NCBI GenBank assembly: GCA_030831125.1
Contig: JAURLQ010000062.1
Location: 1-48,905, forward strand
Reading direction: 5' to 3'
Origin: Gammaproteobacteria bacterium
Lineage (GTDB): Bacteria > Pseudomonadota > Gammaproteobacteria > Pseudomonadales > Pseudohongiellaceae
Length of the DNA stretch: 48,905 bases
The position numbers and the translations under genes were made by a program. The notes under the pieces are model-generated. The model did no database searches. It saw nothing but the letters and a program-made list of their open reading frames with translations, and was not told the DNA's origin. Shown here piece after piece: positions 22,401 to 24,768 of the stretch (positions within the stretch are counted from its first letter, which is position 1; every line of letters starts with the position of its first letter).

Positions 22401-22535
22401 TTTGTTTGTCTGGAAGGTCAAATCGAACGGGATCGAATGCCAGCCTTTCCCGAATGAAGCCTGTTATGATTGATTGCCTGAATGGTCCACGATCAATATG
22501 CTTGCATTATTGCGACAGCCATTAGGCGCAGAAAC

Positions 22536-23426
22536 ATGTTTTTGAAATTTCTCTTTCCAGTCTTGCTGCTTTTCTGCTCATTATCGCTTCAGGCCCAGCC
22601 CCTGCTGTATATGCTCGAAAGTGATGCAGGCAAGCTGTACATTCTCGGCGGCGCTGAAATTCCTGCAGATATGGCGTGGCAAAGCGAGTCAATAGACACT
22701 GCCATGTCGCAAACTACGGACTTCTGGACTGAAGTCCCTGCTGCAGATCCTGAGCGCGGCATTCCCACCATAAGATCAGAAGTGGCACCGGGTCCAGGGT
22801 TACCGCTGCATCCGGTTGCCATGGAAAGGGGCTACGGTAATTTGCAACTGCGCGATTATTTCGATGTAAGTATGGGCGAGCGTTCAGTAATTGAATCACA
22901 GCGCCTGAATCTCGGTAGTGTCAATTACGGCGCCATGGAACCATGGTTGGCCTGGTTTACTTTCTACTACAAATTCATCGACAGTCTGGATACCGAGCTG
23001 ACCAACCCGCAAGATGTGTTATACAGCACTGCTGTCATGCAGGGTAAAAAAATTCATTCACTCTTTGAAACCAGAGCAGACTGGTACCGTTTCCTGGCCA
23101 GCATGAATGACTTTGCCCAGACCCATTATTTCCAGCATTTGTACAATCTCATGGATGCCATGCGCAGCAATGCCATCAACAGCCATTACAACTGGACACA
23201 CGGACAACCGGATGCTCAATGGGTCAGCAGCATAAAAAGCAGAACACCTTTCTTCTACACATTCATGTTTGAACAGCGCAATGCAGCGCTTGCAGAACAG
23301 CTGATCAATATAATGCAGACCGGCGGTGTGCATTTTGTGTATCTGGATGTTGATCACCTGGTTGGTGATGACAGCGTGATCCGTTTACTCGAAGAACGTG
23401 GACTCGCTTTATCACAGTTACAGTAA
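22536..23426 (+). CDS. TraB/GumN family periplasmic protein
   Basis: A 296-residue secreted protein. Signal peptide residues 1-22 (cleaved after LSLQA) precede a TraB/GumN-type domain. The family start motif, usually W-x-I-x-x-x-x-x-x-x-Y-L-x-G-S-I-H, appears as LLYMLESDAGKLYILGGAEI, and the C-terminal motif as VHFVYLDVDHLVGDDSVIRL followed by LLEERGLALSQL. The ATG at 22536 is chosen because it directly precedes the signal peptide; a longer frame adds 18 unlikely residues. The loss of the usual GSIH histidine suggests a divergent member. The next gene begins 1 nt after its stop, so they form an operon. Biochemical role unknown. Confidence 0.75.
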   Translation: MFLKFLFPVLLLFCSLSLQAQPLLYMLESDAGKLYILGGAEIPADMAWQSESIDTAMSQTTDFWTEVPAADPERGIPTIRSEVAPGPGLPLHPVAMERGYGNLQLRDYFDVSMGERSVIESQRLNLGSVNYGAMEPWLAWFTFYYKFIDSLDTELTNPQDVLYSTAVMQGKKIHSLFETRADWYRFLASMNDFAQTHYFQHLYNLMDAMRSNAINSHYNWTHGQPDAQWVSSIKSRTPFFYTFMFEQRNAALAEQLINIMQTGGVHFVYLDVDHLVGDDSVIRLLEERGLALSQLQ

Positions 23427-23427
23427 T

Positions 23428-24186
23428 ATGAGGAAGCCTACAGTGAAGCCTGCCTCATGCAAGCAACATAACAGTATCGCCTTTAATACGACTTGCCTGG
23501 GGATGATCCGCACACTGCTCACTGCAATGCTGTTGGTCGCTTCTACACCGGCTCAATTGCAAGCTGCAGATGAAGTGGGACATATCGTCGTGCTGAAAGG
23601 AGAGGCCATTGCACGGCAACCGAATGGAACAGTTCAACAGCTTTCGCGACGCAGTCCGATTCTGGTCGGCCAAAGACTCATAACAGAACCGGACAGCTCA
23701 CTGCAGATTCTGCTCAATGACGACACGCAATTTGTGCTGCGGGAAGAGTCCGAATTCATGCTTGATGCCTATGATGAAAATGCACTTAACCTGAAGTCAG
23801 GCAAAGTGCTACTGATGAGTTTGACCAGAGGCTGCATCCGCTACATGACAGGGGAAATCGGCGTAAGTCCTCGCGATGAAGTCCGGTTGGACACCCAATT
23901 TGCTTCATTGCAGATTGATGAACTGGTGGTGTTTGAAACCTGTATTGATGAACAGAGACTGGAAACGGCTGTTTCTGCAGGTACGCTCCTTGTAACCAAC
24001 CAACTGGGTGATTTACAACTCGATTTCAGCGGGCAATTCGACTACGCCGAAACCATTGCAGGACAAGCCCCGACAGGCTCAAGGGTCCAGTCGATGCCTG
24101 CCCCACCACCCCGCAGTAACACGCCGGGCCGGCTGCGACAGCAGGAGGATTTCGACATTATTCCTCTGGATAAGGCTGAAGAATAA
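23428..24186 (+). CDS. FecR-domain periplasmic protein
   Basis: A 252-residue protein, or 227 residues if translation begins at the ATG at 23503, which directly heads a signal peptide (MIRTLLTAMLLVASTPAQLQA). The mature part begins with a FecR-type domain: GHIVVLKGEAIARQPNG, PILVGQRLITEPDSSLQILL and DTQFVLREESEFMLDAY, the usual beta-rich pattern in which a periplasmic protein senses or binds surface structures. A Pro/Arg-rich tail follows. The start at 23428 is set 1 nt after the upstream stop, suggesting coupling, but neither candidate has a good ribosome binding site. It pairs with the TraB/GumN-like gene. There is no sigma factor gene beside it, so it is not a standard FecI-FecR pair. Confidence 0.7.
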   Translation: MRKPTVKPASCKQHNSIAFNTTCLGMIRTLLTAMLLVASTPAQLQAADEVGHIVVLKGEAIARQPNGTVQQLSRRSPILVGQRLITEPDSSLQILLNDDTQFVLREESEFMLDAYDENALNLKSGKVLLMSLTRGCIRYMTGEIGVSPRDEVRLDTQFASLQIDELVVFETCIDEQRLETAVSAGTLLVTNQLGDLQLDFSGQFDYAETIAGQAPTGSRVQSMPAPPPRSNTPGRLRQQEDFDIIPLDKAEE

Positions 24187-24415
24187 TACATGCACGGAGC
24201 AGGTCGAACCCTGGGGGAGTAGTGATCTTTCCAACAAGCCTTATGCTTGATAATTTGGATAAATCTGTTTCGGAAAGACTGTCGGAGCTTGACCGGACAC
24301 TTCCCTGTGTCCGGCCCTGCGGGCAACCATGGCAACGCCATGGTTGTGGTAAATCGCTCCCGGCGATTTACGCGAACCCTGGGGGGTTCTCGAAACTCCC
24401 CCGAGGACGCCAAAA
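24187..24415. other. hairpin-rich non-coding segment with tRNA-Glu-like fragments
   Basis: No gene. Three perfect hairpins stand in a row: CCGGACAC/GTGTCCGG (24293-24314), a 10-bp stem CAACCATGGC/GCCATGGTTG with a 3-nt loop (24324-24346), and GTAAATCGC/GCGATTTAC (24349-24371). A GC-rich block follows (24373-24416) whose right part GAGGACGCCA, with a GGGGGGTTCTCGAAACTCCCCC arm before it, resembles the T-arm and 3' acceptor of the neighbouring tRNA-Glu in opposite orientation. The 13-mer CGAACCCTGGGGG occurs at both 24205-24217 and 24373-24385. Confidence 0.6.
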
Positions 24416-24417
24416 AA

Positions 24418-24447
24418 AACCCCCACTCGCTTTCGCGAGTGAGGGTT
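24418..24447. terminator. bidirectional terminator after the tRNA pair
   Basis: AACCC(C)CACTCGC-TTTC-GCGAGTG(A)GGGTT forms a 12-bp stem with one mismatch. It is flanked by eight A on the left (minus-strand U-tail) and TTTTT on the right, so it can end both the tRNA transcript and the TraB-FecR transcript. Confidence 0.85.
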
Positions 24448-24452
24448 GTTTT

Positions 24453-24528
24453 TGGCGTCCCCAGGGGGTTTCGAACCCCCGTTGCCGGGATGAAAACCCG
24501 GTGTCCTGGGCCTCTAGACGATGGGGAC
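24453..24528 (-). tRNA. tRNA-Glu (anticodon UUC)
   Basis: A 76-nt cloverleaf with acceptor GUCCCCA paired to UGGGGAC, discriminator G and an encoded CCA. The anticodon stem CCGGG/CCCGG holds loop UUUUCAU (anticodon bases at 24492-24494), and the T-arm GGGGG-UUCGAAC-CCCC is standard. It is 17 nt after tRNA-Ala and is charged by the product of gltX just upstream. Confidence 0.97.
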
Positions 24529-24545
24529 TTGAACTGTGTTACAGG

Positions 24546-24621
24546 TGGTGGAGGCAAGGAGGATCGAACTCCTGACCTCAACGCTGCCAGCGTTGCGCTC
24601 TCCCAGCTGAGCTATGCCCCC
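24546..24621 (-). tRNA. tRNA-Ala (anticodon GGC)
   Basis: A 76-nt cloverleaf with acceptor GGGGGCA / UGCCUCC (one G-U), D-arm with AGCUCAGCUGGGAGAGC, and anticodon stem CAACG/CGUUG around CUGGCAG (anticodon at 24586-24588). The T-arm is standard and CCA is encoded. It forms one transcription unit with tRNA-Glu, in the order known from pseudomonads downstream of gltX. Confidence 0.97.
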
Positions 24622-24714
24622 GCTTTACCTGTAAGAGTCTATCGGATCAGGTTGCGTTCAACCATGAAGACCGTCAAGCCACTGCTTTCCCCGGGCTGGC
24701 CGAGAAAGACGCGC

Positions 24715-24743
24715 ATTCTATTTACCACCCCGGTGAGTGTCAA
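24715..24743 (-). promoter_or_regulatory. promoter of the tRNA-Ala/tRNA-Glu unit
   Basis: Minus strand TTGACA (24738-24743), a 17-nt spacer and TAGAAT (24715-24720), directly followed by GCGCG. A GC-rich discriminator after the -10 is typical of stable-RNA promoters under stringent control. It lies between the gltX stop and tRNA-Ala, so the tRNAs need not depend on gltX transcription. Confidence 0.85.
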
Positions 24744-24768
24744 GAAATTGTAAGGGAAACAGCAGTAA

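Follow-up and report, generated by a model that had tools for sequence, protein, structure and literature searches.

Why should the 3' end of a tRNA gene recur, in inverted orientation, behind the terminator of that same gene? The question is raised by a locus in the window, by which we mean the whole 48,905-nucleotide stretch analyzed here (contig JAURLQ010000062.1, from a gammaproteobacterium of the Pseudohongiellaceae), in which such a copy of the tRNA-Glu end is followed by a run of hairpins. A preliminary description of this DNA had noticed the inverted end, pointed to a 13-mer repeated close by and, regarding inverted copies of tRNA ends as unusual, offered a tRNA-derived repeat or a scar as explanations. 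From sequence comparisons we judge it quite probable that this worn feature is related to the tRNA-linked repeats (TLRs), which are known from Escherichia coli, and that it is a four-hairpin element lying behind tRNA-Glu.

The tRNA-Glu locus and its inverted repeat

Read 5' to 3' on the minus strand, the locus consists of tRNA-Ala, tRNA-Glu, a terminator, the inverted tRNA-Glu end, a T-arm 5' half and four hairpins. ARAGORN and Rfam both identify tRNA-Ala(GGC) at 24546-24621 and, 3' of it, tRNA-Glu(TTC), the host gene of the repeat, at 24453-24528 (both on the minus strand). A consensus scan detected a single promoter-like site, TTGACA-17-TAGAAT (24743-24715), before tRNA-Ala, and a minus-strand terminator-like hairpin of 13 pairs with a T-run 3' of tRNA-Glu, at 24418-24447. 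The inverted copy, which comprises the T-arm, the acceptor 3' strand and the CCA, reads GGGGGTTCTCGAAACTCCCCCGAGGACGCCA on the plus strand at 24382-24412, so that the interval first given for it (24381-24416) was correct to within a few bases. Its similarity to tRNA-Glu exceeds that of shuffled sequence, the check named in the preliminary description, with an alignment score of 34 against a maximum of 26 in 5,000 mononucleotide shuffles and, under a second scoring scheme, of 19 against a maximum of 14 in 2,000. The large inverted repeat that had been described around the terminator was likewise borne out: with the terminator arms included it spans 33 nt at 88% identity without gaps (24398-24430 and 24435-24467), lengthens to 24382-24480 when gaps are allowed, and is centered on the arms of the terminator hairpin, with their 4-nt loop. 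ARAGORN found no full second tRNA on the plus strand, and positions 24190-24460 matched nothing in the window's own genome (E ≤ 0.001) beyond this block and the inverted counterpart at the end of tRNA-Glu.

The region 24190-24622 folds far more stably than expected (z = -10.2, none of 100 dinucleotide shuffles being equally stable), a value that is partly due to the tRNAs and the terminator. Sub-threshold Rfam matches to miRNA models and psRNA14, all far under their gathering scores, were judged to be effects of the long hairpin. In the minimum-energy fold of the same region on the minus strand, the tRNA 3' end and the inverted copy pair as the arms of a single long hairpin, as would be expected if the copy served to capture the T-arm and acceptor of tRNA-Glu in read-through RNA and so to remove unterminated precursors. 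The inverted copy lies behind the terminator, however, and would be able to act on read-through RNA only, while at some of the other sites described below it can pair with a downstream direct copy instead. We regard such a switch by misfolding as an unlikely purpose of the repeat.

The 13-mer reported at 24205 and 24373 is exact at both places. It reads CGAACCCTGGGGG, at 24205-24217 and 24373-24385, 168 bp apart, and a genome-wide count found exactly these two copies, both in the window, in 3.16 Mb; chance recurrence is disfavored by this lack of a third exact copy. The copy at 24373-24385 is composed of the T-arm 5' half (AGGGTTCG, within 24381-24373 on the minus strand) and the end of the inverted T-stem; the minus strand here contains a hairpin of 6 bp, GAACCC/GGGTTC. 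Judged by the spacing of tandem units at other loci (see below), the copy at 24205-24217 is likely a remnant of a second tandem unit, which gives the locus one core and one 13-mer remnant at 168 bp; TLR loci hold one to five copies.

The core itself, matched by the covariance model R2 described below and probably akin to the rrB and RtT TLRs of E. coli, occupies 24282-24380 on the minus strand and starts 72 nt from the CCA of tRNA-Glu on the same strand, downstream of the host tRNA as in TLRs. Hairpin 1 (24349-24371) has the loop CGGGA, hairpin 2 (24324-24346), found by inverted-repeat search, has the arms CAACCATGGC and GCCATGGTTG, hairpin 3 (24315-24323) reads CCC-GCA-GGG, and hairpin 4 (24293-24314) reads CCGGACAC-AGGGAA-GTGTCCGG; the first, third and fourth, read from the sequence, correspond to alignment helices 1, 3 and 4. 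Hairpins 1 and 4 both present GGA in their loops. A direct tRNA-Glu end was not detectable in the 59 nt after the core (6 against a mean of 5.2 for other tRNAs, rank p = 0.256). Because no distal T-arm/acceptor copy was found in the window, and the consensus scan of 24100-24760 returned the tRNA-Glu terminator region only, with no second terminator behind the hairpins, the window copy may be decaying, a worn repeat.

Within the genus, the core model found only the window's own genome: at E ≤ 0.01 it matched none of the other ten (seven of the 11 reach 90% completeness with no more than 5% contamination, and four of the other ten are poor), and at E ≤ 1 it matched none of the 20 loci L033-L052. 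For the six tRNA-Glu regions from the same genus (L033-L038), it is the terminator hairpin that contains the best inverted match. When the tRNA was tested alone, the window scored 19 against a maximum of 9 for other tRNAs, and L016 (which coincides with L033) and L035 came out slightly above the others, at 10 against maxima of 9 and 8. Lack of conservation in relatives, which had been named as a result that would count against the feature, was thus found within the genus (0 of 10 genomes) and not in the wider order, where at least 130 of 390 genomes have a match to the core model.

The locus could also be read as a one-off quasipalindrome, the product of one fold-back error during replication of the tRNA-Glu terminator, followed by unrelated hairpins. 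The position of the inverted repeat, centered on a terminator hairpin with a 4-nt loop, and the lack of core matches in the other ten genomes of the genus are what this would predict, but the adjoining core matches the family found in those 130 or more genomes, model R2 recovers the window, and inverted ends of the host's own tRNA recur before cores at other tRNAs. This reading was already disfavored, and we hold it to be very unlikely.

Even less probable is that the block is an integration scar, left by a phage or island that used tRNA-Glu as its attachment site. In its favor, two genes separate gltA from tRNA-Glu here, and gltA-like sequence is visible by eye behind the tRNA-Glu terminator in L033 and L035-L037. 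Searches of the window's own genome that included tRNA-Glu as a query (E ≤ 0.001) nevertheless returned the gene itself and the inverted copy only, with no direct copy, so that the direct tRNA 3' end expected at the far border of an integrative element was not found; the inverted block had no match in either the phage or the plasmid collection, by which we set aside an origin from either; and the inverted copy is accounted for by the repeat family. Of the two explanations originally offered, the tRNA-derived repeat is the one upheld, whereas an excised element finds no direct copy in the genome or after the core and no phage or plasmid match. The interval between gltA and tRNA-Glu (22482-24186) holds a TraB/PrgY/GumN family gene and a FecR-like gene (below the Pfam cut-off), and the GumN protein had a match at E ≤ 1e-15 in one of 136 other family genomes searched.

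A family of units behind stable-RNA genes

The family was assembled from tRNA genes adjoining gltX in other gammaproteobacteria, where similar stretches lie downstream in Marinimicrobium agarilyticum (L109), Gilvimarinus (L114 and L117), uncultured Pseudomonadales (L091 and L093), Porticoccaceae (L145) and Aestuariirhabdus (L113). Units in tandem are spaced by 178, 178 and 176 bp in L091, by 181 bp in L093 and by 187 bp in L117. Gilvimarinus xylanilyticus and Marinimicrobium agarilyticum are among the carriers of better-kept units, behind tRNA-Ala and tRNA-Ser. An alignment mixing type A and type B units (A1) gave a poor consensus fold and was discarded. In alignment A2, made of six type A cores with the window included, both partners vary in 9 of 21 pairs, and 95% of the cells are paired; it provided model R1, which has the window but no E. 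coli sequence among its seeds. Model R2 was built from 41 units that had been gathered with R1, leaving out the window, the R1 seeds and E. coli. Both models lean to T-arm settings because their ends include T-arm letters, mostly those of tRNA-Ala.

In pairwise comparisons with 1,000 shuffles each, the window core surpassed all shuffles against L117 unit 1 (37, against 15.4 ± 2.5 and a maximum of 29) and L114 unit 1 (32, maximum 25), and stayed below the shuffle maximum against the L117 upstream unit (28, maximum 30), L109 (25, maximum 28) and L117 unit 2 (19, maximum 29). Since only two of these five pairs beat the shuffles, the family relation rests on the models: R2 matches the window at 59.4 bits (E = 2.5e-14, or 8.2e-13 over the whole of its own genome) and the four L091 units at 23.4-38.2 bits. 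A weak core-model match (25-26 bits, E 0.001-0.002) also occurs elsewhere in the window's genome, at G000:C50:9841-9926, with no tRNA in that stretch (L200). At gathering score, the families of Rfam 15 matched none of the units in the sources scanned, except for RtT on its own repeats.

Applied to the order at E ≤ 0.01, R1 matched at least 130 of 390 genomes and at least 62 of 142 genera; strict filters and a limit of 11 candidates per genome make these counts lower bounds, and the sample is the high-scoring part. We examined 117 hits, made up of 29 loci returned by the R1 order search (without L167, which is the window's own), 79 stretches and nine further loci from a second search. The 79 are those of 80 stretches chosen by place from the order-search list that remained after removal of L209, which shares its place with L161; loci of the second search that were duplicates or weak (L190, L193, L194, L198-L202, L205 and L206) were left out.

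Among the matches listed, the 3' end of a tRNA or tmRNA faces the core within 130 nt in 39 of 117 hits and the 5' end in two; within 600 nt the corresponding numbers are 54 and seven, and the median distance from 3' end to core is 72 nt. The other 63 listed hits lie outside the 600 nt downstream of any t(m)RNA, and an Rfam scan of 20 hits with no t(m)RNA in reach returned a 5S rRNA at L171, a guanidine-II riboswitch at L222 and nothing in the rest. The linkage of the core to t(m)RNA 3' ends is strong, though not universal. Inspection by eye also showed, at L117 6950-7081, a truncated tRNA-Ala (5' part) continuous with a unit core, which resembles a tRNA-unit tandem shortened by deletion, and at L142, behind tRNA-Ala (c6698-6773), an extra direct copy of the tRNA-Ala end followed by an identical terminator hairpin.

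From the 117 hits and the window we kept the sites where a t(m)RNA 3' end lies no more than 130 nt away; once identical ones were removed, there remained 39 distinct sites, which include orthologs and are not all independent, at genes for tRNA-Ala, Arg, Glu, Gly, Met, Phe, Pro and Ser and for tmRNA. The inverted 3' end of the site's own host before the core scored above the mean of other tRNAs at 35 of the 39 sites (Wilcoxon, 1e-7), 16 of them at rank p ≤ 0.05, and the direct 3' end after the core did so at 36, with 25 at that level. Leaving out the four R1 seed sites (the window, L159, L188 and L189), the proportions are 31 of 35 for the inverted and 33 of 35 for the direct end. Clear cases of inverted ends include tRNA-Ser at L230 (23 against at most 11), tRNA-Arg at L178 (23 against 14) and tRNA-Gly at L238 (16 against 10); none of the eight tmRNA sites reached rank p ≤ 0.05. 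Similarly, the core flanks agree more closely with the T-arm halves of their own host gene than with those from other tRNAs at 31 (5' half) and 34 (3' half) of the 39 sites, and with its acceptor strand at 26, with 11 perfect matches. These flank matches suggest that better-kept members have the core inside the T-loop of a tRNA 3' end that has been duplicated. Less favorable is that a closing stem was predicted in four of 12 folds and that the 6-bp T-arm hairpin is present at 11 of 39 sites.

The view that inverted copies of tRNA ends are unusual accordingly fails within this repeat family, given the 35 of 39 sites above and both of the E. coli tyrT/tyrV repeats tested (see below). Not every family member carries an inverted host end, as the tmRNA sites (0 of 8) and E. 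coli rrnB (none) illustrate, but the inverted tRNA end seems to be a recurrent component of these repeats and not a scar.

Relation to the tRNA-linked repeats of Escherichia coli

Our literature search found the term tRNA-linked repeat only in PMC8144298 and one editorial, PMC9245011. Passages of the former describe TLRs as first reported in 1978 and of unknown function until the rrA/B/F set was linked to CsrA, and count 22 TLR genes at ten loci in E. coli K-12, in which 18-19 bp equal the 3' end of the host (PMC8144298). In these passages, RrA, RrB and RrF are the TLRs between terminators T1 and T2 of rrnA, rrnB and rrnD; binding to CsrA and Hfq is a trait of this class of sRNA, with GGA-loop hairpins of RrB binding CsrA in E. 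coli; the effects of rrA/B/F mutants are modest; and rrB occurs in no fewer than 31 species, from 12 genera that all belong to the Enterobacteriales (PMC8144298). The 19 TLRs of tRNA operons, unlike rrA/B/F, are there each given a predicted CsrA-binder score below 0.01 (PMC8144298).

On E. coli, R1 matched rrB, between the rrnB terminators, at 44.5 bits and left tyrT unmatched. R2 matched rrB at 52.9 bits and, in addition, the four RtT repeats of tyrT and tyrV at 27.1, 25.3, 24.8 and 15.2 bits (E = 1.7e-5, 5.5e-5, 7.6e-5 and 0.031). The core is therefore related to E. coli TLRs in the sense that R2 finds the window, rrB and four RtT repeats alike, a criterion that is ours and not part of the published definition. 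The first repeats of tyrT and tyrV each contain an inverted tRNA-Tyr end (16, against maxima of 14 and 12 in 500 shuffles) and a direct tRNA-Tyr copy matching at 19 of 19 positions. At rrnB there is a direct 13-nt copy and no inverted 5S end (5 against a null of 6.3).

The window resembles RrA, RrB and RrF in its related core (as judged by rrnB), in its place downstream of a stable-RNA gene and terminator, and in its GGA-loop hairpins. It differs from them in its host, which is tRNA-Glu in the window and 5S there, in possessing the inverted host end that rrnB lacks, and in having neither a detectable direct 3' copy nor a second terminator, so that the placement between two terminators typical of that set does not apply to it. 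With the tyrT/tyrV RtT repeats (rttR, RF00391), it shares the inverted tRNA 3' end, the T-arm 5' half and the core; the three repeats behind tyrV are spaced by 178 bp, and the two RtT units examined repeat the tRNA end directly and exactly over 19 nt, whereas no direct copy was detected in the window, which the Rfam RtT model does not match. On these sequence grounds, the window element is classed as a TLR relative or remnant at tRNA-Glu, a variant and not a full TLR, because the direct 3' copy of 18-19 bp that defines TLRs was not found.

GGA in hairpin loops is also a feature of the clan of CsrA-binding RNAs in Rfam (CL00106), which includes CsrB, RsmY and TwoAYGGAY. No family of this clan reaches its gathering score in the window, in which a 16-nt sub-threshold match to RsmV coincides with hairpin 4. 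Elsewhere, TwoAYGGAY matches lie near tRNA-Ala units on the opposite strand, at L114 2830-2926 and L117 6778-6882 (both minus).

Hairpin structure, arm symmetry and candidate functions

Alignment A3 drew on 56 chosen sources, mostly t(m)RNA-linked. Both partners vary in 18 of 20 pairs among 74 distinct units, and the covariation of 0.575, against 0.142 in shuffled alignments, leans to the structure because the alignment was fitted to it; sliding the pairing partners by 1-3 columns in the same units left a covariation of at most 0.059. Hairpin 1 has GGA in its loop in 69 of the 74 units, hairpin 4 in 68 and both hairpins in 64, counts that are biased because GGA-seeded models chose the units. 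Type B units (L091, L093, L145 and L113) show no GGA loops by eye. Furthermore, at eight of 39 sites (five tRNA-Phe, two tRNA-Gly and one tRNA-Arg) the core points the opposite way from its host gene, so that read-through RNA there would be without GGA loops. Type B units and reversed cores together indicate that GGA is not required for the persistence of the element.

The stems of the core are also poor in G-U pairs, which account for 13 of 1,344 standard pairs (1.0%, with 107 of 1,451 core cells unpaired), against 59 of 1,102 (5.4%) in the acceptor and T stems of 92 tRNAs from the same loci; the comparison is one of shares, with no formal test. In L091, the unit next to the tRNA carries TTTGGTGGAG, the exact inverse of the tRNA end, and units 2-4 of that locus, like the first units of L093 and L145, carry TTTGCCGGAG. 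Because G-U pairs are few, inverted ends match their hosts and only the tRNA-adjoining unit of L091 is exact, we suggest that the arms take their sequence from one another at the DNA level, when the template switches by fold-back at hairpins.

The inverted copy of the host tRNA end continues the terminator arms and precedes the core. In the mechanism we propose, the direct and inverted arms presumably arose at the terminator, through local duplication and template switching by fold-back. Those tRNA-Ala-Glu transcripts that read through the terminator would then carry both the inverted tRNA end and the core, whose GGA-loop hairpins may bind CsrA, as in E. coli RrB. A csrA gene is present in the window's genome. 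By analogy with RrB, we entertain CsrA binding as the function of the core, a tentative assignment to which we give somewhat less than even weight.

A comparable weight falls on the possibility that the element is selfish or neutral DNA, a mobile or template-switch-prone hairpin element behind stable-RNA genes for which any role as RNA is incidental; this shares the identification as a TLR relative and disputes only its function. The scarcity of G-U pairs in the core stems relative to tRNA stems, as if the arms were kept symmetric in DNA, speaks for it, as do the eight reversed cores, the tandem copies, the occurrence of TTTGGTGGAG next to the tRNA of L091 and of TTTGCCGGAG elsewhere, as if the arm had been re-copied, and the lack of a t(m)RNA link in about half of the listed hits. 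Pure symmetry in DNA would not, however, lead one to expect that 64 of 74 units should have GGA loops on one strand, a number partly selected by the models.

Taken at its broadest, the comparison would unite rrB and RtT in one family, lying behind stable-RNA genes in much of the Gammaproteobacteria, with a core in the T-loop of a duplicated tRNA or tmRNA 3' end, copies that each acquire their host's sequence in direct and inverted form through template switching at the terminator, and conserved GGA loops acting as a CsrA sponge. We consider this full reading doubtful, its chances being lowered by the prediction that tRNA-operon TLRs do not bind CsrA; if true, it would imply a widespread CsrA sponge whose output tracks stable-RNA transcription.

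A model derived from the window extends the relatives of TLRs to the window's own order, in at least a third of its sampled genomes, and R2 joins rrB and RtT in one family and suggests a common anatomy, with a T-loop position and with ends that match the host in direct as well as inverted form. An inverted tRNA end that follows a terminator is thus not necessarily a scar, and both the origin of TLRs and their putative titration of CsrA become testable in many hosts.
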